A DNA stretch of 64,000 nucleotides, taken from positions 1 to 64,000 of the forward strand of contig OMYN01000008.1 in assembly GCA_900315265.1 (NCBI GenBank). The letters run 5' to 3'. Within the stretch, counting starts at the first letter, position 1, and each line of letters starts with the position of its first letter. Shown here piece after piece: positions 2 through 11,514 of the stretch. A program made the translations under genes and the position numbers. Origin of the DNA: an uncultured Eubacteriales bacterium (GTDB lineage Bacteria > Bacillota > Clostridia > Lachnospirales > Bianqueaceae). The notes beneath the pieces were generated by a model, which saw only the letters and a program-made list of their open reading frames with translations, did not search any database and was not told the origin of the DNA.

Positions 2-877
2 AACGACTGGGTATGGAGACCGATCCGGCTCAAGCACACGGACATGCAGTTCTTAAGGAGATACTGGACCGGCGTCAACTGTTCCGCTCCGGTACTGGAA
101 CGGAAGAGAGGCAAGTGGTCCCTCAGGTTCACTTTCACGCAGACAGTCAAACTGTCGGAAACGCCGATCGAAGGCCAGCGGATCCTCAGTGTCGATCTGG
201 GACTTAATACGGATGCGGTCTGCACCATCATGGAGGCGGACGGAACGATCCTCGGAAGGAAGTTCATCGACTTTCCGGGTGATAAAGACCGTCTTTCCCA
301 TGAACTGAATCGTCTGAAGAAGTTCCAGAGGATGCACGGATCCCATAATTCCAAGTCCAGGTGGAGAAGGATACGGAGCCTCAATGAGGAACTGGCCCGC
401 AAGATCGGCCACGCCATCGCCGACTACGCGGCAGGAGCCTGCTGCGACGCTATCGTATTCGAGCATCTGGACATGAAAGGAAAGATCCGGGGCAAGTCCA
501 AGCGCCAGAAGATCCATCTGTGGCGAAAGAACGGGATCCAGCAAGTAACTGAAACAAGAGCGCATCGGTACGGGCTGCATGTATACCATGTCTGTGCCCG
601 GAATACGAGCCGCTTAGCTTTCGACGGATCCGGTTATCTTGTCCGAGACAAGAACAATCATGCGCTTTCCGTCTTCAAGAATGGGAAGCCGTATAACTGC
701 GATCTATCGGCCTCCTATAACATCGGGGCCCGGTATTTCGTAAGAGAACTCCTCAAACCCTTACCGGAGACGGCAAGGTCTCAGATCCGGGCAAATGTCC
801 CGGGTGCTGAGCATCGAACCTCCTGTACCTATCACACCCTGCTTCAGACAGCGGAAGAGCTTCGCCGTCTGGCATGA
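2..877 (+). CDS. tnpB: TnpB-family RNA-guided nuclease (IS200/IS605 OrfB), 5' end outside window
   Basis: The frame is open from base 2, so the N-terminus lies upstream of the window and 291 residues are visible. The RuvC-like core is intact. Counting from the Met at 44, the first acidic residue is Asp51 (SVDLGLN), the second Glu140 (VFEHLD) and the third Asp220 (NCDLSASYNIGAR). The zinc-ribbon cysteines usual between the second and third motifs are missing: the segment reads CARNTSRLAFDGSG instead of a Cys-x2-Cys pair. I recall the same pattern, and this style of C-terminus (KPLPETARSQ... TSCT), from other clostridial OrfB proteins, so the gene need not be decayed. TnpB proteins act as RNA-guided DNA nucleases encoded in transposons; the guide RNA is read from the element's right end. 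No TnpA transposase is visible. Confidence 0.88.
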   Translation, partial: NDWVWRPIRLKHTDMQFLRRYWTGVNCSAPVLERKRGKWSLRFTFTQTVKLSETPIEGQRILSVDLGLNTDAVCTIMEADGTILGRKFIDFPGDKDRLSHELNRLKKFQRMHGSHNSKSRWRRIRSLNEELARKIGHAIADYAAGACCDAIVFEHLDMKGKIRGKSKRQKIHLWRKNGIQQVTETRAHRYGLHVYHVCARNTSRLAFDGSGYLVRDKNNHALSVFKNGKPYNCDLSASYNIGARYFVRELLKPLPETARSQIRANVPGAEHRTSCTYHTLLQTAEELRRLA

Positions 878-1122: not shown

Positions 1123-1151
1123 TTGAAAAAAAGGGCATGAAATTTTAAAAT
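1123..1151 (+). promoter_or_regulatory. Predicted sigma-A promoter for the cluster regulator
   Basis: TTGAAA at 1123-1128, a 17-base spacer and TAAAAT at 1146-1151. A second weaker option is TTGAAC (1082-1087), 16 bases, TAAAAT (1104-1109). The 338-base gap between tnpB and the regulator otherwise holds only the guide RNA region and A/T-rich DNA. Confidence 0.55.
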
Positions 1152-1154
1152 TAT

Positions 1155-1201
1155 ACTAAACAGAGATTAATTTAGTAAAAACAACGAAAGAATCACTAAA
1201 T
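1155..1201. promoter_or_regulatory. Repeated ACTAAA/TTTAGT words between promoter and regulator start
   Basis: ACTAAA occurs at 1155-1160 and 1195-1200 and its reverse complement TTTAGT at 1171-1176. The outer pair ATTTAGT (1170-1176) and ACTAAAT (1195-1201) forms a 7-base inverted repeat with 18 bases between. They lie just downstream of the predicted -10, a good place for autoregulation. The A/T-rich setting makes chance occurrence plausible. Confidence 0.3.
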
Positions 1202-1215
1202 GAGGGGGTCATGAA

Positions 1216-2094
1216 ATGTGGAAGAGGAGAAATAATAATGTAAAATTGTATGAAACATTTCGCGATTTTTCAGTATCGGTTCTGAGAAAATGTTATTCGG
1301 AAATCATTCAGATCGATTGTGCGAAACATCTATTAGCTGAAATCGATCCGGAAGAAGGAAAAGAACCGGTCTTTGAAAAACAGGATCAGTTGATCCCCAA
1401 GGTTTTGGAAAAACTGAGAATTCCGGGAGAAGAAAATACAAAGATCGTATACGTTCAGATTCAAAAAGTTTTTGATGAGGAGGATCGGGAAAAACTGTCT
1501 GCTTTTCGGCTAAAAGGAGAAGACGGGATCCTTTTCGAAGGGGAAGTGATGGCTTTTACTTCCTCTTTTGTTTTTCTCTGTTTTCGAGATATAACGCTTC
1601 AGGAAAAATACAGGATCCTGGAGGAACAAAGTAAGATCGAAAACCAGGAGGTAAGGCCAAAAGTCTTTGTCAGAACTTTTGGCTACTTTGATGTTTTTGT
1701 GAATGACACGCCAGTAGCCTTCAAGAATCCTAAGGCTAAGGAGCTGCTTGCACTTTTAGTCGATCACGCGGGAGGATTTATCAACAGCGAAGAAGCAGCA
1801 GGTTTGCTGTGGGGGGAAGTACCATATGATGAAAGTGTTAAGGCTAAGTACCGGAAAACGGCTTATGAACTTAGAAAGACATTAAGGGATTTAAAAATCG
1901 ACTATATTCTTTGCGAGAAGAAGGGACAACGGGGGATCGATCGTACAAGTTTTGAATGTGATTATTTTCAACTGCTGGATGGGGATAAGAAAGTAAGGGA
2001 ATCCTTTGCGGATTCCTATATGAAAGAATATGACTGGGCACAGGAAACGCTGGCAGATCTATTGGTTTTAACCAAAGAAAACGATCCGAAATGA
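1216..2094 (+). CDS. SARP/OmpR-type winged-helix transcriptional regulator of the RiPP cluster
   Basis: This 292-residue protein has an OmpR-like winged-helix domain at about residues 150-245. It opens with RTFGYFDVFVNDTPVAF, continues with KAKELLALLVDHAGG and FINSEEAAGLLWG, and resembles the DNA-binding half of SARP (BTAD) activators. Residues 20-140 are mixed alpha/beta, end in FLCFRDIT, and look PAS-like, so they may sense a signal. There is no TPR-like BTAD tail. Start ATG 1216 follows GAGGGGG by seven bases. It is the first gene of the cluster, separated by 122 bases from the biosynthetic operon, whose promoter carries phased repeats of the sort SARPs bind. Regulation of that operon is inferred from position and motif, not shown. 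Confidence 0.75.
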   Translation: MWKRRNNNVKLYETFRDFSVSVLRKCYSEIIQIDCAKHLLAEIDPEEGKEPVFEKQDQLIPKVLEKLRIPGEENTKIVYVQIQKVFDEEDREKLSAFRLKGEDGILFEGEVMAFTSSFVFLCFRDITLQEKYRILEEQSKIENQEVRPKVFVRTFGYFDVFVNDTPVAFKNPKAKELLALLVDHAGGFINSEEAAGLLWGEVPYDESVKAKYRKTAYELRKTLRDLKIDYILCEKKGQRGIDRTSFECDYFQLLDGDKKVRESFADSYMKEYDWAQETLADLLVLTKENDPK

Positions 2095-2130: not shown

Positions 2131-2180
2131 GGACAAACAGGAACGAATGTGAACGGACGAGAACGCAGGAAATGTATTAT
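2131..2180 (+). promoter_or_regulatory. Phased GAACG direct repeats and -10 of the biosynthetic operon (SARP-like operator)
   Basis: GAACG occurs at exactly 2141, 2151 and 2161, with a degenerate GGACA at 2131, giving four repeats on a 10-base period, one helical turn. TATTAT at 2175-2180 can serve as -10 and starts nine bases after the last repeat. No good -35 is present. Streptomyces SARP activators are known to bind short direct repeats about 11 bases apart whose last copy lies about eight bases before the -10, replacing the -35. TATAAA at 2187-2192 is an alternative -10. Confidence 0.6.
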
Positions 2181-2216
2181 TATCCGTATAAAATTTGATG
2201 CGGAGGCTTGAGTTCG

Positions 2217-3230
2217 ATGAGATATTTGATCATTTCAAATGGATGCGGGGCCGGTCATGCAGTAAGAGATTTGGTCCTGGCTGATGAAATCAGAAGGAGA
2301 AGCGATGGCGCAGAAATTTATTTTGCGTCATATGCCGCAGGGCTGTCCGTATTTCATTCCATTGGAGAAACGGTTATTGACCTGAAACAAGAGGAGCGGC
2401 CTGACCCGGATGTGATAGGGAAGGTACTGAGCCGTGTAATAAAAGAGGTACACCCGGACGTGCTGATCAGCGATGAGGTGATTGCAGCGCTGGGACATGA
2501 TCGCACGATCAAAACCTACTTTCTGACCAATCATTTGAATATTTATGAATACAGCTATGCCTACTGGGTTTGTGAAAGCATTCTTTTTGCAGAGCTTCCT
2601 GACAGTCTTGGATCATTGCTGCAGGATAGAAAGAAAATCAGAACAATCGGTCCCATTGTCCGGGAAAGATTCGATATACCGGATCTTACCGTAAGCGAGC
2701 CTTCTGACCAGTGCCTTCACGTATGGGTGGGTGGGTCGCAGTTAAAAGCCCTTCAACTTGAAAATATCTGGCTCTTCAAAAACCTCTTTGAACAGTTAGA
2801 CAACAGAAAAATCTATGTTCATGGGATAGAATATGAAAGGTTCTTTCGTAAGGTATCGCTGCCTAATGTTTTCTGGGTAGAAAGAGACTATTCTCAAAAG
2901 CCTTATCAGCAGGGCGTACAGATTACCAGAGGGGGTATTCAAACTCTATGGGAGATGGCCTTGACCGGCGCAGCGTGTATCGCTGTGCCTTATTCGGATA
3001 AAGTAAATCCGCAGGAAATAAAATATGCAAAAGTCATGGAAAAAAGAGACCTTTGTAAATTAGTGCAATACCAGGATATTCGGGAAAAAAGACTGAAAGA
3101 AGTAGTAGAAGAAGTTGAGGCGGCAAAGTCCGTAAAGTATTCCAGGTATCTTCAGAACAGAGGGTATCAATTGGTCCTGTCCTGCAGAAATGAGTGGGAA
3201 GCATGGATGAGCGAAATAACGCAGCAGTAA
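2217..3230 (+). CDS. GT-B fold glycosyltransferase, GT28/MurG-like, in RiPP cluster
   Basis: The protein has 337 residues from ATG 2217, chosen because GGAGG at 2202-2206 lies ten bases upstream; the in-frame TTG at 2208 is too close to it. The N-terminus MRYLIISNGCGAGHAVRDL matches the MurG-type glycine-rich opening where the acceptor domain begins. The C-terminal half has ITRGGIQTLWEMALTG, AACIAVPY and NPQEIKYAK, corresponding to the nucleotide-sugar binding region of GT28 and UGT enzymes. No membrane segment is seen. It heads the biosynthetic operon and overlaps the next gene by 28 bases. It probably attaches a sugar to the modified peptide, as MftF does in mycofactocin or SunS in sublancin, but donor and acceptor cannot be read from sequence. 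Confidence 0.75.
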   Translation: MRYLIISNGCGAGHAVRDLVLADEIRRRSDGAEIYFASYAAGLSVFHSIGETVIDLKQEERPDPDVIGKVLSRVIKEVHPDVLISDEVIAALGHDRTIKTYFLTNHLNIYEYSYAYWVCESILFAELPDSLGSLLQDRKKIRTIGPIVRERFDIPDLTVSEPSDQCLHVWVGGSQLKALQLENIWLFKNLFEQLDNRKIYVHGIEYERFFRKVSLPNVFWVERDYSQKPYQQGVQITRGGIQTLWEMALTGAACIAVPYSDKVNPQEIKYAKVMEKRDLCKLVQYQDIREKRLKEVVEEVEAAKSVKYSRYLQNRGYQLVLSCRNEWEAWMSEITQQ

Positions 3231-4402
3231 AGCATATTTTCAGATGGGATTTTGCATTAGAAGTATGGAATGGAAAACTTTATGCTGCCTCACAAAGCAG
3301 CGGCCTGAGGCTTCCGATCAGTAAAGTTCAAGCGTTAGCGTTAGCTTTGTTCGATGGAACAAGGACCGATGATGAAGTCGAGAACATTTGGAGCAGAATA
3401 TTTTCCGGTAAGGGTAGAAGCGCTGTTGAAACAGCATCTATCCGGTGGAACCTGCTGCTTCCGGAGAACTGTGATATGCCTCACAGCGTAAGGAAGCCGG
3501 TTACACTGGAACATTTATCGGCTATCTTGAAAAACGCGGAAGAGGATATGGGAAGGCCGATGATACCGGAGAATGTTGTTTGGAGATTTACGGATCAGTG
3601 CCGATTCTGCTGCTCCTATTGTTATGAAAAGGACTACCTTCGGAAACTGAGAAAACCACTTATTCTGAAAGAGAAAATGTCCGTTGTAGATAAGTTGTTT
3701 ATGTCCGGTGTCCGACATGTTCATTTGACGGGAGGAGACCCTTTTTGTGAAGATGATCTATACCCGATCCTTACAGAACTGCTGAAACGGAATATTCGGG
3801 TCTCTGTCTTGACCAAGTCACGGATCAATGTCGATGCAATAAGAAAGATGGAGACAAATAATCTTTCTCTTGGTTTCAGCATTGATAGTGCTGATTCGGT
3901 CATTGCAGGAAAATTAACCGGTGAAAAGGATTTTTTGCAGGGGGTGCAAAAAACGATGAGACTGCTGAAATTAAACGGAATCAAATTTTTTGCTGCTTAT
4001 ACTCTGACGCAGATGAATTATTATGATTTTGACAAGGACATGCAATGGCTTCTGGATCAAGGCACAGATAGAGTAGAAGTTACCCGGTATCAGGAAACAG
4101 GAAGAAAGCAGTCGGACCGGGAACTTTCCATTACCGATTCCATGTGGGATGAGGTAAAAAAGAAAAATGCAAGGGGAGTGCGTTTTCTGGATGACAAACC
4201 GGCACAGTGTCATTCGGGAAGGCAGTCGATGACAATTGATGCAGATGGAACGGTGATTTTCTGTGATGTTTTTCCGGATGCAGGACGTTTTGAAAATATA
4301 CGCCAGTCTTCTCTTTCAGAACTGTGGGATCAATACTCTTATAACTGCTTTTGCAGAGAAAGAGGCGGCAAATGCTATCGCTGCGAGAAAATATTTTATT
4401 AG
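3203..4402 (+). CDS. Radical SAM/SPASM peptide maturase 1
   Basis: A 399-residue protein from ATG 3203; GTG 3194 is an alternative. Residues 12-90 resemble a small PqqD-like peptide-recognition (RRE) domain, including NGKLYAASQSSGLRLPIS. The radical SAM 4Fe-4S motif is Cys133-x3-Cys137-x2-Cys140, followed by the LTGGDPF turn used for SAM binding. The C-terminus has a SPASM-like pattern: CHSGRQSMTIDADGTVIFCD, the LSELW signature, then CFC and CYRC, enough cysteines for at least one extra cluster. Such enzymes install thioether or carbon-carbon crosslinks, or epimerise residues, in peptides. It overlaps the glycosyltransferase and the next radical SAM gene, so translation is probably coupled. 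Its exact chemistry is unknown. Confidence 0.88.
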   Translation: MDERNNAAVKHIFRWDFALEVWNGKLYAASQSSGLRLPISKVQALALALFDGTRTDDEVENIWSRIFSGKGRSAVETASIRWNLLLPENCDMPHSVRKPVTLEHLSAILKNAEEDMGRPMIPENVVWRFTDQCRFCCSYCYEKDYLRKLRKPLILKEKMSVVDKLFMSGVRHVHLTGGDPFCEDDLYPILTELLKRNIRVSVLTKSRINVDAIRKMETNNLSLGFSIDSADSVIAGKLTGEKDFLQGVQKTMRLLKLNGIKFFAAYTLTQMNYYDFDKDMQWLLDQGTDRVEVTRYQETGRKQSDRELSITDSMWDEVKKKNARGVRFLDDKPAQCHSGRQSMTIDADGTVIFCDVFPDAGRFENIRQSSLSELWDQYSYNCFCRERGGKCYRCEKIFY

Positions 4403-5673
4403 GAACAGGCAGTGGACATGTTTTTCTGATTGACGACAGTCATGAAAAGCCAGAGCGTATCATTGGGAGAAAGCTTTCCGTACTTCTTTGTTATTTACTG
4501 ACAGCACCAAGTGAAGAGGCTTGTCGGGAAGCTTTACAGCAGGCAGGGATTTGCTATTCAAAGGAAGAGATCCGAAAACTTGAGATTTACTTCATCAAGA
4601 AGTTTCCCGGTGCCTTCAGTCAGGGCAGTAATGAAGGTTCCCAAAGACACGGGGCTGTAGCAAAAATGCGGATAGAAAGCGGCAGCTGTCAAAACGATCG
4701 GCTGTCATTCTTTCGTTTGGATTATCCGGTCCATTTGATTTATGTCCCTACCTGGCGCTGCAATCGAAGTTGCCGTTATTGCGGTGTCCCGAAAACCAGG
4801 GATGGAGAAAAGATCCCGGAAGACCTGTTGATTGAAAGACTGACAGAGGCTTCGAAAAAGGGATTGCAGAAGCTGGATATTCACGGAGGGGAACCTCTGT
4901 ATTACGCTTTTGAAAAAACGGAGCATTTAGTTGCAGCTATGAAGCAGGCCGAGGTGAAAACATACGTTTCGACTAAGAATCTGGTAACTGCGGAGATGGC
5001 TGAAAGGCTTAGGAAAGCAGGGCTCGATTGCATACAGCTGAGCCTTGACACGATCGATACATCGCAAGCACAGATGCTGGGGTATCCGGACGGCTATTTG
5101 GATTTTTTCAATCGTTCTTTAGAAAACATTAGAAGAGAGAACATTCCTATATCGGTGAATGTGGTCGTTTCCCAGGAAAACGAAAAAGGTTTGGAGAAAC
5201 TCCTTACTTTTCTGAAGGAAAAAAATATTGAGATGATCACTCTGTCTCCCTTGAGAAAAACAGATAAGGTCGGATTACATGAGGTCAAAGAAGAAAAGAA
5301 AGAATATCTGAATCAAAAATTAAGCAAGTTCGGTATGCGGATACCTGTTTCAGAGCCGGGTCAAAGACCGATCTGTGAGGCGGGACGAAATGGATTTCTG
5401 ATTCTTCCTAATGGTGAGTGCGCCTTTTGCGATTTTATTGCAGACCTCCCTGAGTTTCGTTTCGGAGACATCAAAACTAGTACGGTGGAAGAGATCTGGA
5501 ATGACCCGAAGCTGCTTGAATTGACCTTTCCTTCCAAGGAACGTTTGGCAGAAAAATGCCGATCGTGTGAACAAAATGAGATTTGCCGATCCAGAGGTTT
5601 TTGTTATGTAAATCAGGATTTCAGAGGAAAGGTAAAGGAGGACAGATTTTGCCTGAAAGGATGGGGAAGATGA
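4372..5673 (+). CDS. Radical SAM/SPASM peptide maturase 2
   Basis: A 433-residue protein. ATG 4372 is preferred over 4351 because GAGGCGGCAA stands before it. Residues 1-110 form a variable N-terminal region that may hold a PqqD-like recognition domain. The radical SAM motif is Cys130-x3-Cys134-x2-Cys137 (CNRSCRYC), and DIHGGEPL is the glycine-rich SAM-binding segment. The C-terminal SPASM domain is the most complete of the three: CEAGRNGFLILPNGECAFCD, VEEIWND, then CRSCEQNEICRSRGFC and a final FC, consistent with two auxiliary 4Fe-4S clusters. It differs clearly from its two neighbours, which argues for a separate reaction rather than a recent duplication. Confidence 0.9.
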   Translation: MLSLRENILLGTGSGHVFLIDDSHEKPERIIGRKLSVLLCYLLTAPSEEACREALQQAGICYSKEEIRKLEIYFIKKFPGAFSQGSNEGSQRHGAVAKMRIESGSCQNDRLSFFRLDYPVHLIYVPTWRCNRSCRYCGVPKTRDGEKIPEDLLIERLTEASKKGLQKLDIHGGEPLYYAFEKTEHLVAAMKQAEVKTYVSTKNLVTAEMAERLRKAGLDCIQLSLDTIDTSQAQMLGYPDGYLDFFNRSLENIRRENIPISVNVVVSQENEKGLEKLLTFLKEKNIEMITLSPLRKTDKVGLHEVKEEKKEYLNQKLSKFGMRIPVSEPGQRPICEAGRNGFLILPNGECAFCDFIADLPEFRFGDIKTSTVEEIWNDPKLLELTFPSKERLAEKCRSCEQNEICRSRGFCYVNQDFRGKVKEDRFCLKGWGR

Positions 5674-5677
5674 TAGC

Positions 5678-6916
5678 ATGGCCTTGAAAGAATGCTGGGC
5701 CATTCAAGTTGGTAAAGGCCGCTTGTTCTTAAAAAATACAAAACAAGAGCAGGTGTGGATCCCTCTGTCCAGTAAAGAAGCAGTAGGTATTTATTTGCAA
5801 AGCTGTGGTTTGAGTGCTGATGAAACAGTGGATTTTATGTTTCAAATGCATCTAATCAGAAACAAAGCTATGACTGCGCAAAACCTGGTCCATCGGTATA
5901 GTGTTTTTTTTAATAGTTCTGGAGAGAAACGACCAGTCGATTGGGGCTATGTAAAGAAATTACTGGCAGCAGCAGCAGTTTCACCGAAATACTTTGAGTA
6001 TCCTTTCCCCAGAGTTATGAAAGCTATTGTAACCGATCGATGCAGTGGTTTATGCAAATATTGCTATGATGAGATATACCGGAAAGCCACAGATGTACAG
6101 GAACTGAGCATTGAAGAATGGTCAAGGATCCTTAAACAGGCAGAAGAGGTCGGAATTTATCAGATGATCCTTATTGGCGGTGAACCATTCGAGAAAAAAG
6201 GGATTATGAAGGTGATCGAGGAAGCAGCAGCGGCACACATCTATGTAGAGATCGTCAGCAAGCACTTGTTTTCACAAGAAGAGGCCCAAAAGCTTGCAGA
6301 AATTCCCAGGGAATTTTTAAAAATTATTCTTAGCGCCGATCTGGTTCCCGGCCAAGAAGATGAACTGTTATATACCTTTGAAGGGGAATCTGAAAGGATT
6401 TTGCAAAGTTATAGAGAACTGAAAGCCGCAGGGATACAGCCGGCGATTCAGACAGTTGTGACAAGCAAGAATTTAAAAAGTATTCAACGATTGGTCACAT
6501 TTTATACGGATCTCGGAACAAAGGAATTTCGACTTAGTCGTTTTTGCGTGACAGAAGGAAAAGAAGATTTTTGTGTTTCCGATTCACAATGGGAGGAATT
6601 AAAGAGAAAATTGATCTCACAAAAGGACGTTGCGGTCATATGGATGTCGGAAGGAGTCGAGAAAAAGACTTCAGCTCAAGTCTGTGTGAACGGAAGTACC
6701 TGCATGGTTGTACTTCCCGATGGAGAGGTTTGTTTCTGTGACTACTTTCGCGACATACCTAATAATTACATAGGAAATCTCAAAAACAGAACTTTGCTCG
6801 ATGTTTGGAATTCGGAAATAAGAAGGGAGAGGGTGAAACAGCATGTACGCTGTTATGCCGAATTGCAATTGGAAGATCCTGCAAATTCAAAGAAAGCTGC
6901 CTTTTCTGGTTCTTGA
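5678..6916 (+). CDS. Radical SAM maturase 3 with reduced SPASM region
   Basis: A 412-residue protein starting four bases after the previous stop, behind GGGGAAG. The N-terminal 105 residues (for example WAIQVGKGRLFLKN, IYLQSCGLS) are again compatible with an RRE-like domain. The radical SAM motif is Cys122-x3-Cys126-x2-Cys129 (CSGLCKYC), and LIGGEPF follows for SAM binding. The C-terminal part keeps CVNGSTCMVVLPDG, EVCFCD and LLDVWNS, but after one more cysteine (VRCYAEL) it stops without the final CxxC group. It may therefore carry fewer auxiliary clusters than maturases 1 and 2. Its last 74 bases overlap the protease gene in another frame, which may explain the altered tail. Confidence 0.87.
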   Translation: MALKECWAIQVGKGRLFLKNTKQEQVWIPLSSKEAVGIYLQSCGLSADETVDFMFQMHLIRNKAMTAQNLVHRYSVFFNSSGEKRPVDWGYVKKLLAAAAVSPKYFEYPFPRVMKAIVTDRCSGLCKYCYDEIYRKATDVQELSIEEWSRILKQAEEVGIYQMILIGGEPFEKKGIMKVIEEAAAAHIYVEIVSKHLFSQEEAQKLAEIPREFLKIILSADLVPGQEDELLYTFEGESERILQSYRELKAAGIQPAIQTVVTSKNLKSIQRLVTFYTDLGTKEFRLSRFCVTEGKEDFCVSDSQWEELKRKLISQKDVAVIWMSEGVEKKTSAQVCVNGSTCMVVLPDGEVCFCDYFRDIPNNYIGNLKNRTLLDVWNSEIRRERVKQHVRCYAELQLEDPANSKKAAFSGS

Positions 6917-7892
6917 ATTGTGGATACCTTATGGCGCATGGGATACGGAACCGGGAAGAAGCGGAGAAGCTCATTTAGCTGAGCACGTACTGATCGGTAT
7001 CATCCGAAGAAACCTCAGTTTTTACGAACAGGTGAATTCATATGGATATACAAATTCCTATCGTATCCGTATTAGCTGGATAATGGAACCAAGCCGCTTG
7101 CAGGAGAGAATCGGGGCAATCGTTAATGACTTGAGCCGGGCAGCGCTGGATCAAAAACTATTTGATCAGGAAAAAAGTAAAGTCATTCAGGAAATAAACA
7201 CGATCAAAAAAACTGATTCACTGACATTGGTGGAAGAGGTTGAACAGATCATATATCAAAAGAAGAAAGAAGAAGTCACTGCGCAGGGTGATACACGGCA
7301 ATTGGAACAGATAGATTTCCCGTCTTTTCTCGAAAAGCTGAAGAAGGTAATGAATGAAGAAGGGATCGTCTTTACCTTGACAGGAGATATTGAGGATTTG
7401 AATCTTTTCCCAAATCGTCAGCCGTTAACGGAACATACCAGCCAAGTGTCTCTGTCTTTGAAACAAGGAAGGGATGAGATGTGCCTTTCACTGTCAACTC
7501 ATGACGGAGATATTAAAGCCTTCCGTTGGCAAATATGGGATATAGGAAGTGCGCATGCTGCAGAAATACTCGAGACTTTTCTTGAATTTCGATCGGCAGA
7601 CGAAAGGATCCGGATCCGTTCCGTCCGACACAGAAATGATATGCTCTTTATCTTTATAATTCCGAAAGATGTAAGGTCCTGGCAGGAAAAATTCAGCGGG
7701 GAGCTCTTCCAAAAAGTATACGAAATGTATTATATAGAACAACGATACCTTACGGCAGAACCTCGAAAGGAAGCAGAGAGAATAGCAGAGGATGTTTTTG
7801 AGACAACGTTTCACAAAGAAGGAAGAGAGATTTCCAGTTGGCAGATTTGGGAGCGTTTTCAGAAAATGATAAATCCGGAGGTGAAAGCATGA
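6843..7892 (+). CDS. M16-family zinc metallopeptidase (likely leader peptidase)
   Basis: The inverted zinc motif HxxEH is present as HLAEH at residues 44-48. The third ligand fits Glu117 in KVIQEINTIKKTD, aligned with the pitrilysin AELTM segment. Ligands would be His44, His48 and Glu117, with Glu47 catalytic. At 349 residues it is shorter than usual M16B proteins (about 400-430), and its second lobe is weak. Members of this family sit with radical SAM enzymes in PQQ (PqqF) and subtilosin (AlbE/F) loci. The start overlaps the preceding gene by 74 bases, behind GGGAGAGGG. Neither exporter in the cluster has a peptidase domain, so this is the best candidate to remove the leader. Confidence 0.82.
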   Translation: MYAVMPNCNWKILQIQRKLPFLVLELWIPYGAWDTEPGRSGEAHLAEHVLIGIIRRNLSFYEQVNSYGYTNSYRIRISWIMEPSRLQERIGAIVNDLSRAALDQKLFDQEKSKVIQEINTIKKTDSLTLVEEVEQIIYQKKKEEVTAQGDTRQLEQIDFPSFLEKLKKVMNEEGIVFTLTGDIEDLNLFPNRQPLTEHTSQVSLSLKQGRDEMCLSLSTHDGDIKAFRWQIWDIGSAHAAEILETFLEFRSADERIRIRSVRHRNDMLFIFIIPKDVRSWQEKFSGELFQKVYEMYYIEQRYLTAEPRKEAERIAEDVFETTFHKEGREISSWQIWERFQKMINPEVKA

Positions 7893-9601
7893 ATCAAAAA
7901 TATAGTGTTCCAACGGCTGTGGGAATAGCTGCCGGGACAATAAAAGGTATTCTTATCACATGCAATATTTATTTATTGCAGGCAATCGTGGATACGGCAG
8001 TGACAGGCAAATACTGGGATGCAATGATCCGGCTCTGCTATATGGCTGTCAGTACGGGAATCGTTCTTTTAGCGGACCTTGTTAAAAGTAAAATGATCCT
8101 GGTCCTGAATAAACGGATCGAAATCGGAGAAGGGGAATGTCTACTTAATAAAATCAGCCGTCTTCCTTATGAATTATTTGAGGACAGTGCCTTGTTCCCT
8201 AAATTCGATAGGGTCATGACGGATGGTGTGGAGCAGAAAAAAGGACTGTATCAGAGCATTTTCAATGGAGTGGAGTTTGCCGTTGAATATATCGGGATCA
8301 GTATATATGCTTGTTCTGTTAAATGGTGGTGCCTGTTAGTTATTTTCTTATTGACCATACCGGTCTGGCTGTTAACGATCGTTGGTGCTTCATCTGAAGG
8401 TAAATTTACCCAGGATAATTGGAAGTGGAATCAAAAAGCTCTTATTTTCTCTCACATCCTAAATAGCCGTGAATTTATCAAAGAAGAGAAAATATTCGGC
8501 TTTTATCCGTTGATCAGCAAAAGATGGAAAGAAAATGCCGAAAAGTACCAGCATGGAAAAATAAGAAGTTCTTTTTCTGTCAGGGTATGGATCGGTGCTG
8601 TTAATTTCCTTCAATATGCGGTCACGATCGTTCTTGCATGGCTTTTGATCCTTGATATTCGAAAAGGAAGTGTCACCATTGGTGAACTGGTAGCGACGAT
8701 GGACAGCCTTTGGAGGATGATAGGTTCAGCCTTGTTTACGGTCGTAGGTTTACTGGGCGGATTTGTCGGATATAGTGAATACGCCAAACAGCGGAAATGG
8801 TTCATGAACCTCAAGGAGGAGAAAGAAAGCGGAGAGGAACTTGAGGATATCCGCAGCGTTGAATTTCAGAATGTTTGCTATGGATACCCCGCCGAAAAAG
8901 AAGAAGACCGCCGTATGGTCCTTCAGGGTGTATCGTTCCGCATCGATCAGGGAGAAAGGACTGCCCTTGTCGGAGAGAACGGCTGTGGTAAAAGCACGGT
9001 CATTAAGCTTATGACAGGGCTTTTGAAACCGGTTTCCGGGACGATTTTGATCAATGGAAGAAATGCGGAAGATTACTCGATATCTTCCAGAAGAAGAGCT
9101 TTTTCCTGTGTTTTCCAGGATTATATGAAATATGATATTTCTCTGAAGGACAATATTCAGCTGGGGGCCCTGTGGCAAAAGGAAGATCCGTCAGAAGCGC
9201 TGAGTCGTATCGACCGGGATCTTGCAGCAAATGTGGGAGGAATGGACCAGATCTTAGGAAGATCGGTGGAAGGTGCCAGAGATGTTTCGGGAGGTCAATG
9301 GCAGAAGATCGCACTTGCCAGAGGAATTTATTCAAAGGCTTCGTTTTGGGTGCTGGATGAACCGACTGCGGCGATCGATCCGATTTCGGAACGGGACGTT
9401 ATTGAAACAATGTTGAAAGTAAGAGAGAACTGCACTAAGGTGTTTGTCACTCATAGGCTTGGATCGGTCCGTTTCATGGATAAAGTCATTGTTCTTAGAA
9501 ACGGTAAAGTAGAAAACATCGGAACACACGAAACATTGAGAAAGGAGGATCCATACTATGAAAAGCTTTACAGCACTCAGGAAAAATGGTACCGTTCGTA
9601 A
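7889..9601 (+). CDS. ABC exporter half-transporter 1
   Basis: A 570-residue membrane-ATPase fusion. ATG 7889 is chosen because CCGGAGGTGAAAGC precedes it; it overlaps the protease stop by four bases (ATGA). Residues 1-310 contain hydrophobic membrane spans (for example WWCLLVIFLLTIPVWLL, TIVLAWLLIL). The ATPase has Walker A GENGCGKST, signature VSGGQ, Walker B FWVLDEPT and a switch histidine in VFVTHRLG. There is no N-terminal C39 peptidase domain. It probably pairs with the next gene to export the finished peptide or give immunity. Confidence 0.88.
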   Translation: MNQKYSVPTAVGIAAGTIKGILITCNIYLLQAIVDTAVTGKYWDAMIRLCYMAVSTGIVLLADLVKSKMILVLNKRIEIGEGECLLNKISRLPYELFEDSALFPKFDRVMTDGVEQKKGLYQSIFNGVEFAVEYIGISIYACSVKWWCLLVIFLLTIPVWLLTIVGASSEGKFTQDNWKWNQKALIFSHILNSREFIKEEKIFGFYPLISKRWKENAEKYQHGKIRSSFSVRVWIGAVNFLQYAVTIVLAWLLILDIRKGSVTIGELVATMDSLWRMIGSALFTVVGLLGGFVGYSEYAKQRKWFMNLKEEKESGEELEDIRSVEFQNVCYGYPAEKEEDRRMVLQGVSFRIDQGERTALVGENGCGKSTVIKLMTGLLKPVSGTILINGRNAEDYSISSRRRAFSCVFQDYMKYDISLKDNIQLGALWQKEDPSEALSRIDRDLAANVGGMDQILGRSVEGARDVSGGQWQKIALARGIYSKASFWVLDEPTAAIDPISERDVIETMLKVRENCTKVFVTHRLGSVRFMDKVIVLRNGKVENIGTHETLRKEDPYYEKLYSTQEKWYRS

Positions 9602-11336
9602 TTTACGGCGCGGATGGGATTATATCTGCTATGTCTTCAAAAAATCACCGTTTATTTGCTCTGCAGATTTTTGCATGCATCTTATGGTGGTTGGTATTTG
9701 TCCGGTAGTTACTGCGACACTTTGGGGAAAATGTATCGATTCCCTTTCTACGGACCAAAGCAAATTGGGGATCCTTTTACTTATCCTTCTTTTTATAGGA
9801 GGACTAAGCAGCGGGTTTTTGTTCTGGGGTGAAATCATCGATAACTTTTATCGATGCAAAGTGTCTCTGCTGATGCAGGAAAGGATACATGAGAAAGCTA
9901 GAAGATTATCTGCCCAAGTCTATGAAAACAGCCTCGTCCGGGATATGGCGGAAAGAGCGAATAAAGTTTTCTATTATGGCCCGGCGATCAGTTTTTCGTT
10001 TTCAGGAATCATGATCCTTTCAGGTTTTGTCAGCAGTTTGCTCTCTATTATCGTATTGGCACGATACCATTACATTTATGCCTTGCTGATGCTTGGAATG
10101 CTGGCGACCGATTTAATGAAGATGTCTCTTAGCAAAAAAAGAGCTAAGGTCATAGATGGACAAACAGAAAGCAGACGATCGGCTGAGATCCTTCGGACCT
10201 ATGTGTGGAAACACGAGGCTGCTAAAGAGACCAAGATGCACCTGGCCGGCAGTTTTTTCATTGACCGATGGAAAGGTCTGACAGAAAAGATCATGACGGT
10301 AGAGTATACTTGTTTTCAAAAGATCAATCGGCAAAGTACGCTGCTTAGTCTGATATCGGGGGTACTGCTGATTGTGGGGATCGGTATCAGTATTCGTTTC
10401 CTGATCGAAGGAGAACTGACGATCGGTAGGTTTGGAACGGCGATCATCCTTTTTAGACAGTCTGAAAAATATGCGCAAACGTTTGCCGATGCACTGAGCT
10501 CTCTTAGTGGAGATCTGGAACACATTAAAGCCGGGTATGAATTTCTGGAACTTGAGGAAGCAGACGTGGACGGAACTGGGCCATCGTCTGATCCGATGAA
10601 AAAGGTACAGCTAAAACACGTTTCATTCCGTTATCCCGGTGTCGAAGCTGCTGAAGCTTTGAAAGACATTGATTTGACTTTGGAAAAAGGAAAGCTATAT
10701 GCTGTGGTAGGAGAAAACGGAGCAGGAAAGTCGACCTTGGGCAAGATCATCCTTGGTTTATATAAGCCGACAGAAGGCAGTATTTCCGTTGATGGAAAGG
10801 ATATAGTTGCAATGTCCGAAGCGGAGCGCTTTTACAGGCGTTCGGCCGTTTTTCAGGATTATAATATATATCCTTTAACGGTCAGCCAAAATATTACCTT
10901 GAGTGAAAAACCTGCAGAGTCCGTCCCTGCCTTTGTAAAGCCGGATGACCTTCTCGGCAAAGAAATCGGAGGGAAAGAACTGTCAGGCGGGCAGAAGCAG
11001 CAGATCGCGATCGCGCGGGGCAGAAATAAGAGCTCCGACCTGATCATTCTGGATGAGCCGACCAGTGCTATGGATTCCTTCACCGAAGACAAGGTTTTTC
11101 GATCCTTCCTGGATCTGTCGAAGGATAAAATATCCGTAGTTGTGACTCATCGGCTGGGTATTGCGACTCAGGCGGACCAAATCATAGTTTTGAAAGACGG
11201 AAAGGTAGAGGCTGTTGGATCCCATGACAGGCTTTTGAAAGATTGTCCTTACTATCGATTATTGTGGGACGCCGGAAAAAGTCTGTATGAGATAAATACG
11301 GACAAATTACAAGAAGGGAGGAATTCGTATGCCTGA
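9558..11336 (+). CDS. ABC exporter half-transporter 2
   Basis: A 592-residue membrane-ATPase fusion, overlapping the previous gene by 44 bases with its own AAAGGAGG site nine bases before ATG 9558. Membrane spans occupy about residues 1-320. The ATPase has GENGAGKST, LSGGQ, LIILDEPTSAMD and VVVTHRLG, so both nucleotide sites of a heterodimer could be active. It lacks a peptidase domain. Its last eight bases overlap the start of the small peptide gene, and the peptide's ribosome site lies inside its coding sequence. Confidence 0.88.
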   Translation: MKSFTALRKNGTVRNLRRGWDYICYVFKKSPFICSADFCMHLMVVGICPVVTATLWGKCIDSLSTDQSKLGILLLILLFIGGLSSGFLFWGEIIDNFYRCKVSLLMQERIHEKARRLSAQVYENSLVRDMAERANKVFYYGPAISFSFSGIMILSGFVSSLLSIIVLARYHYIYALLMLGMLATDLMKMSLSKKRAKVIDGQTESRRSAEILRTYVWKHEAAKETKMHLAGSFFIDRWKGLTEKIMTVEYTCFQKINRQSTLLSLISGVLLIVGIGISIRFLIEGELTIGRFGTAIILFRQSEKYAQTFADALSSLSGDLEHIKAGYEFLELEEADVDGTGPSSDPMKKVQLKHVSFRYPGVEAAEALKDIDLTLEKGKLYAVVGENGAGKSTLGKIILGLYKPTEGSISVDGKDIVAMSEAERFYRRSAVFQDYNIYPLTVSQNITLSEKPAESVPAFVKPDDLLGKEIGGKELSGGQKQQIAIARGRNKSSDLIILDEPTSAMDSFTEDKVFRSFLDLSKDKISVVVTHRLGIATQADQIIVLKDGKVEAVGSHDRLLKDCPYYRLLWDAGKSLYEINTDKLQEGRNSYA

Positions 11337-11475
11337 TGAAAAAGACGAACTGAATATCAAGGAACTTCAGACCCTCGTCAGTGAATTGGGCCTTGAAGAC
11401 GAGTTCGACAGCATCGAAGCAGAATACTGCGCAAGCTGCTGTGTCGTTCTTGGCGGCGGCGGGACAGGCTGCTGA
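11329..11475 (+). CDS. RiPP precursor peptide (48 aa) with Cys/Gly-rich core
   Basis: A 48-codon gene with a strong ribosome site, GGGAGG at 11316-11321, seven bases before ATG 11329. The first 33 residues form a very acidic leader: MPDEKDELNIKELQTLVSEL can form a helix of the kind recognised by RRE domains, and GLEDEFDSIEAEY follows. The last 15 residues, CASCCVVLGGGGTGC, are the likely core: four cysteines, Val-Val-Leu, four glycines and a final Thr-Gly-Cys. The CASCC spacing recalls the clustered thiol donors of sactipeptides and ranthipeptides, but I recognise no known family. It ends the operon and a terminator starts ten bases after its stop. M16 cleavage near the Glu-Ala-Glu-Tyr/Cys junction is a guess. 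Confidence 0.88.
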   Translation: MPDEKDELNIKELQTLVSELGLEDEFDSIEAEYCASCCVVLGGGGTGC

Positions 11476-11484
11476 TGTCCGGAC

Positions 11485-11514
11485 AGGGCTGCTCTTATTG
11501 AGCGGCCCTTTTTA
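11485..11514 (+). terminator. Rho-independent terminator of the RiPP operon
   Basis: AGGGC-T-GCTC, loop TTATT, GAGC-G-GCCCT, then TTTTTAT. It begins just after the precursor stop and closes the cluster. Confidence 0.85.

Follow-up and report, generated by a model that had tools for sequence, protein, structure and literature searches.

Gene content of the locus

The window, by which we mean the whole 64-kb stretch of DNA analysed here, carries a regulator gene, a row of direct repeats in the intergenic region that follows it, and an operon of eight closely packed or overlapping genes. The coordinates of these features are given in Table 1, together with the bearing of a second genome of the same genus, hereafter G016, on each of them (the window's own genome is referred to as G000).

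Table 1. Features of the regulator gene, the repeat row and the operon in the window.
Feature	Position	Strand	Details	Basis
Candidate sigma-A promoter of regulator gene	1123..1157	+	TTGAAA-17-TAAAAT, or TATACT at 1152-1157	Alignment to the G016 promoter
Regulator	1216..2094	+	292 aa	AF2 model; fold and profile matches; 56% identical G016 orthologue
Repeat 1	2131..2135	+	GGACA (GAACG in G016)	Sequence read; comparison with G016
Repeat 2	2141..2145	+	GAACG	Sequence read; comparison with G016
Repeat 3	2151..2155	+	GAACG	Sequence read; comparison with G016
Repeat 4	2161..2165	+	GAACG (GAACA in G016)	Sequence read; comparison with G016
Operon -10	2175..2183	+	TATTAT 2175-2180 or overlapping TATTAT 2178-2183 (TATAAT in G016); no -35	
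Ribosome binding site	2202..2206	+	GGAGG; operon ATG at 2217	Sequence read
GT28/MurG-like glycosyltransferase	2217..3230	+	First operon gene	
Radical SAM/SPASM protein 1	3203..4402	+		
Radical SAM/SPASM protein 2	4372..5673	+	ORF listed from TTG 4351	
Radical SAM/SPASM protein 3	5678..6916	+		
M16-like peptidase	6855..7892	+	HLAEH motif; start uncertain, 6843 or 6855	
ABC exporter (permease-ATPase) 1	7883..9601	+		
ABC exporter (permease-ATPase) 2	9558..11336	+		
Candidate RiPP precursor	11329..11475	+	48 aa, end ...EAEYCASCCVVLGGGGTGC; start overlaps end of ABC exporter 2; strong RBS	
Intrinsic terminator	11485..11509	+	Closes the operon	

The last gene of the operon encodes the sequence MPDEKDELNIKELQTLVSELGLEDEFDSIEAEYCASCCVVLGGGGTGC, for which no match to a known family was found. 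Because of its position, its length and its Cys/Gly-rich end, this Cys-rich ORF is likely to be a RiPP precursor. Directly upstream of the regulator gene lies the C-terminal part of a TnpB-like protein of the IS200/IS605 type (44-877, plus strand), which was not seen at this place in G016. The regulator gene has a candidate promoter of conventional hexamers without repeats, as does its orthologue (TTGACA-18-TATACT in G016), whereas the promoter of the operon has no -35.

A phased repeat row in place of the -35

Read in ten-base units from position 2131, the DNA before the operon is GGACAAACAG GAACGAATGT GAACGGACGA GAACGCAGGA, followed by AATGTATTATTATCCGTATAAAATTTGATGCGGAGGCTTGAGTTCGATG, giving a repeat period of 10/10/10, or one helical turn. 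The original prediction had named GGACA at 2131, GAACG at 2141, 2151 and 2161, TATTAT at 2175 and a missing -35, and all of these coordinates are right: a promoter-pair search found no -35/-10 pair scoring at least 9/12 across the repeat region, and the promoter of the operon consists of a fair -10 with the repeats standing where the -35 would be. Its figure of about eight bases between the last repeat and the -10 is likewise a fair one, as 9 bases separate the last pentamer from TATTAT 2175 and 12 separate it from TATTAT 2178. Counted from the end of the heptamer GAACGRA, which together with three variable bases is the unit consensus across the window and G016, the gap to the -10 is 7 or 10 bp in the window and 8 bp in G016; measured from where the last unit begins, the window has 14 or 17 bp and G016 has 15 bp, so that this distance is not strictly fixed. 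With TATTAT 2178 as the -10 (counted as -12 to -7), units 3 and 4 start near -39 and -29; with TATTAT 2175 they start near -36 and -26, and in G016 near -37 and -27. Self-identity at a lag of 10 is 0.59 across 2105-2175, and the row may begin further upstream than 2131. The 10-bp phase is extended 5' of the GAACG units by AGAAAA at 2115 and 2125 (within 2111-2130), which is not kept in G016. A search of Rfam for a leader RNA element returned nothing meaningful.

Conservation of the repeats and the question of their reader

In G016, a full-length orthologue of the regulator is followed by an orthologous glycosyltransferase (51% identical) and then by the first radical SAM genes. The repeats pass the comparison with a homologous locus that the original prediction had proposed: G016 keeps four units at a spacing of 11/10/10 bp (GAACG at 2532, 2543 and 2553 and GAACA at 2563 of locus L003) and TATAAT at 2578, close to the start of the operon. 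The unit cores of the two loci are identical at 17/20 positions and the spacers at 6/20 (Fisher p 5e-4). The G016 intergenic region is longer, with an extra hairpin directly after the regulator stop, and the intergenic DNA between the two genomes has been rebuilt except for the operator and the -10, with the operator adjoining both regulator and operon in each.

The repeat row is not a chance product. The 2.16-Mb genome has a single copy of GAACGN5GAACGN5GAACG and the reversed control has none, and when exact 5-mer triplets were sought in the 64-kb window at periods of 6-24, the GAACG row was the only one whose period is not a multiple of 3; the period of 10 and the intergenic position rule out a coding origin. 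Any 5-mer triplet at 10/11 spacing appeared in 0.035% of dinucleotide shuffles of the window's intergenic region and in 0.095% of those of the G016 region, and the same word appeared in both shuffled regions in 0/20,000. Among the 392 genomes of the order, the pattern GAACGN{5,6}GAACGN5GAACN{10,13}TATNAT is present in two (control 0), and these are the same two that have the full-length regulator, the glycosyltransferase orthologue and the operon. It is thus very improbable that the phased G-A-A steps reflect DNA curvature or chance rather than recognition by a specific protein. Upstream A-runs, at 2117 and 2127, do share the 10-bp spacing, but against this reading stand the shuffle pairs, the co-occurrence with the regulator, and the fact that what is conserved is a specific word, not just A-runs, in a poorly conserved spacer background.

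A different reader for the repeats must also be weighed, since direct repeats are common to many regulator families and the site could be the operator of another protein, for example a LytTR-type regulator or a response regulator encoded elsewhere, with the neighbouring gene uninvolved. A LytTR-type response regulator is indeed encoded about 2 kb upstream of the regulator in G016 (L015 8258-9034, plus strand), and ACCGTTCAT, one G016 unit read on the complementary strand, fits a LytTR half-site. LytTR sites, however, consist of two repeats about two turns (21-22 bp) apart, as opposed to four units at 10-11 bp here, and no counterpart of the LytTR protein turned up in G000 in a search that recovers it in G016, on which ground it is rejected as the reader. 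Since the only regulator gene found next to the operator in the window and in G016 alike is that at 1216-2094 (or its orthologue), we consider another reader unlikely, and we take the SARP-like regulator described below to be the one that would bind the repeats. Also upstream of the G016 regulator (L015 10290-10090, minus strand) is a divergently oriented ORF of 66 aa that includes a hydrophobic stretch (MDEDEKRLRSAKITVGIAALL...).

Further convincing sites were sought in G000 and G016 with up to 2 mismatches allowed, and none rose above the control level in either genome; we would therefore assign the regulator a single local target.

Predicted architecture of the SARP-like regulator

The regulator is predicted to comprise a PAS-like N-terminal domain (~25-142), an OmpR-type winged helix (~148-245) and a short helical tail (249-288) that resembles the beginning of the BTA domain of SARPs. 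Its AF2 model has a pLDDT of 89.8, with a block at pLDDT >= 95 in the winged-helix region, where the elements are E150-153, E159-162, H172-183, H191-199, H206-225, E232-235 and E238-241, followed by three short helices. Its closest counterparts by fold are two SARPs, EmbR of Mycobacterium tuberculosis and AfsR of Streptomyces coelicolor (Z 14.5-13.7, rmsd 2.7-3.1, 140-145 residues); other OmpR-type proteins fit to the winged helix only (Z <= 9.6), and among the fold matches the helical tail is aligned in the SARP rows only. Regulator residues 147-292 align with EmbR 8-178 and AfsR 21-187, so that only the first part of the BTA domain can be present. Profile comparison of the winged helix and tail, made with an alignment built on the winged helix alone (A7), places EmbR at the top and AfsR among the next (E-values ~1e-3 to 1e-2). 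This profile replaced one from a mixed alignment (A4), which matched mostly receiver domains because most of its rows carry one. Fold and profile together corroborate the OmpR/SARP-like winged helix that the original prediction had seen in the upstream gene.

Pfam gave no match to the regulator at 0.01: Trans_reg_C stayed below the cut-off for it and stood at the cut-off for the relative L005, BTAD was found neither in the window protein at this level nor in any of the 18 family members scanned, and there was no Response_reg (receiver domain) hit in the regulator. A working definition of SARPs has PF00486 and PF03704 both detectable (PMC10663231), and the regulator, with PF03704 undetected by Pfam, falls outside it. 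The most fitting description is that of a SARP-like protein which has a PAS-like domain and a shortened BTA part, not that of a textbook SARP; judged by its predicted fold and its operator, it looks to work like one. Modelled alone, the N-terminal part has the same PAS-type strand-helix order, and its matches are nearly all PAS/LOV proteins; as their Z values are modest (up to 8.1), we regard the PAS-like assignment as likely but short of proof. Between the window and G016, the recognition-helix stretch KA(K/R)YRKTAYELR hardly changes, whereas other relatives have a different sequence there; in these sequences, conservation of the stretch is in step with that of the operator.

By sequence, the relatives of the regulator come from Clostridia, in agreement with the earlier description of the genome as Firmicute-like. 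They include response regulators that combine a receiver with a SARP-like winged helix, which we take to be of the COG3947 'SAPR' type, and the PAS-winged-helix proteins of L010, L011, L012 and L014. All have the same winged helix and share the C-terminal motif CDYY..L.G...F.GEYM..YSWAE, but they carry a receiver or several PAS-like regions where the regulator has one PAS-like domain; scans did not find GAACG repeats near them, and no operator for them was found in the literature searched. OmpR/PhoB response regulators are alike in winged-helix fold (Z ~9) and have the receiver domain that is absent here; the pho box is a tandem array of 10-11 bp repeats that overlaps the -35.

Comparison with known SARP operators

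AfsR and EmbR resemble the regulator, by fold and profile, in the winged helix and the start of the BTA domain, and differ from it in that the protein described here has a PAS-like domain in front, a BTA part of ~45 residues and an origin in Clostridia, not actinobacteria. The afs box is, like the operator here, made of direct repeats one turn apart that replace the -35, but it has two units against four at a period of 10 (11 once). In each of its units AfsR makes contact with the first 8 bp (PMC10936776), which the GAACGRA-n3 layout fits. At afsS, the target of AfsR, the two units start at -40 and -29 (PMC10936776); with a -10 assumed to start at -12, these positions put the start of the last unit ~17 bp before the -10, compared with 14-17 bp at the operator of the window and G016. 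The unit positions of both loci are a SARP layout within ~4 bp of afsS. The AfsR site CGTT(T/C)ATCG (PMC10972967) resembles CGTTC, which is GAACG read on the complementary strand, so that relative to the -10 the two sites are alike on opposite strands.

Classical SARP operators have repeats 11 (or 22) bp apart, against 10/10/10 in the window and 11/10/10 in G016, which is also one helical turn but not the classical value. Both loci share with them a 3' repeat that lies some 8 bp upstream of the -10, and an operator that overlaps or replaces a poor -35, there being no -35/-10 pair in the window or in G016. For the period of 10 there is a precedent in PimR, a SARP-LAL of Streptomyces natalensis whose secondary operator has 10-bp units instead of 11 (PMC5930380). 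The PimR operators likewise consist of multiple heptamers; they differ in the heptamer itself (CGGCAAG), in having two or three units, in not overlapping the -35 and in serving a large SARP-LAL protein.

To our knowledge, SARPs have been described almost only from actinobacteria. In the limited collection of literature searched, no paper brought together SARP, BTAD, direct repeats and Firmicutes, and nothing directly relevant was found on SARPs in Firmicutes or with RiPP clusters.

A model for activation of the operon

From the repeats, their phase and conservation, the missing -35, the co-occurrence and gene order read in these sequences, and from the predicted domain folds, we infer binding, activation, sensing and product as follows. 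With a probability of roughly 0.78, the four GAACGRA units (~2131-2167) are the operator of the cluster-situated SARP-like activator encoded just upstream, replacing the -35 and driving a radical-SAM RiPP operon. The original prediction of a SARP-type operator for this regulator and operon is thus supported by the conservation in G016, by the SARP fold and profile, and by the co-occurrence, with binding and activation as its conditional part. The regulator would be made from its own sigma-A-type promoter, and its protomers would bind side by side on one DNA face, from about -59 to -20 relative to the start site. The winged helices and the short helical tail would compensate for the lack of a -35 by retaining sigma region 4 and RNA polymerase, and so help a promoter weak on its own, much as AfsR helps afsS; because the BTA part is cut to ~45 residues, the AfsR-like contacts to polymerase may be incomplete. 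The PAS-like domain would gate activation in response to a signal, and the regulator would then switch on a single unit comprising the glycosyltransferase, the three radical SAM proteins, the M16-like peptidase, the two ABC exporters, the 48-aa precursor and the terminator. As the operon holds enzymes, a peptidase, exporters, a candidate precursor and a terminator, the operator seems to control a whole peptide cluster, which is the sort of target that SARPs have.

The sign of regulation is not readable from sequence, and units bound at about -59 to -20 could hinder polymerase, so that the regulator might bind the repeats and repress the operon. Yet a promoter without a -35 is expected to need help, and SARPs with such geometry are activators (PMC10936776, PMC10972967); repression strikes us as improbable, and activation by the upstream regulator is the reading that we carry forward.

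A layout known from Streptomyces antibiotic regulators is thus met in a Clostridia-type bacterium. We suggest tentatively, and at somewhat less than even odds, that a Clostridia branch of PAS- or receiver-linked, truncated-BTA regulators acts as SARPs do, by sigma adaptation at -35-less promoters with one-turn repeats. If true, the SARP mechanism would not be an actinobacterial speciality but would reach beyond that group, needing the first BTA helices only, and the locus raises the question of whether sigma adaptation can be achieved with a truncated BTA domain. The conserved operator beside its regulator, available as an orthologous pair, makes the mechanism directly testable, and the operator is a possible switch for an uncharacterised RiPP cluster.

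Distribution of the regulator family and related loci

On the sequences compared, the coupling of operator, regulator and operon appears strong for the G000/G016 pair, two orthologous loci. Within the family, 6/19 genomes (the window's own included) have some match to the regulator, and the full-length protein is confined to the same two genomes; a related winged helix is present in 63/392 genomes of the order. No orthologous locus beyond these two was found with a glycosyltransferase profile against 391 genomes of the class, among viral contigs, or among plasmids with regulator and glycosyltransferase, where one response regulator of a Butyrivibrio plasmid matched the winged helix only. Exact and degenerate phased-repeat scans of ~350 kb of loci revealed no convincing repeats near the genes of other family members, and hits in L010 and L013 (mostly AT-rich) and one in L029 were taken as chance. 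In L010, units of the ATCATAAAAA type with a period of 10 and CATAAT downstream (8853-8898, plus strand) lie ~2.6 kb from a PAS-winged-helix regulator, in AT-rich DNA and perhaps by chance.

The window's genome has a second GT28-like and radical SAM/SPASM cluster (G000:C34, L048 5101-10369), which also encodes PqqD-like and peptidase-like proteins, one of each, along with an ABC exporter (names assigned by eye), and which adjoins a transposase-like gene (3828-4985); searched for both, this paralogous cluster has neither a SARP-like regulator of this family nor the repeats. In two different Clostridia, the PAS-winged-helix relatives (L010 from 6207, L014 from 8412) are directly followed by a gene that is thioesterase-like by eye, a second conserved neighbourhood of the regulator family.
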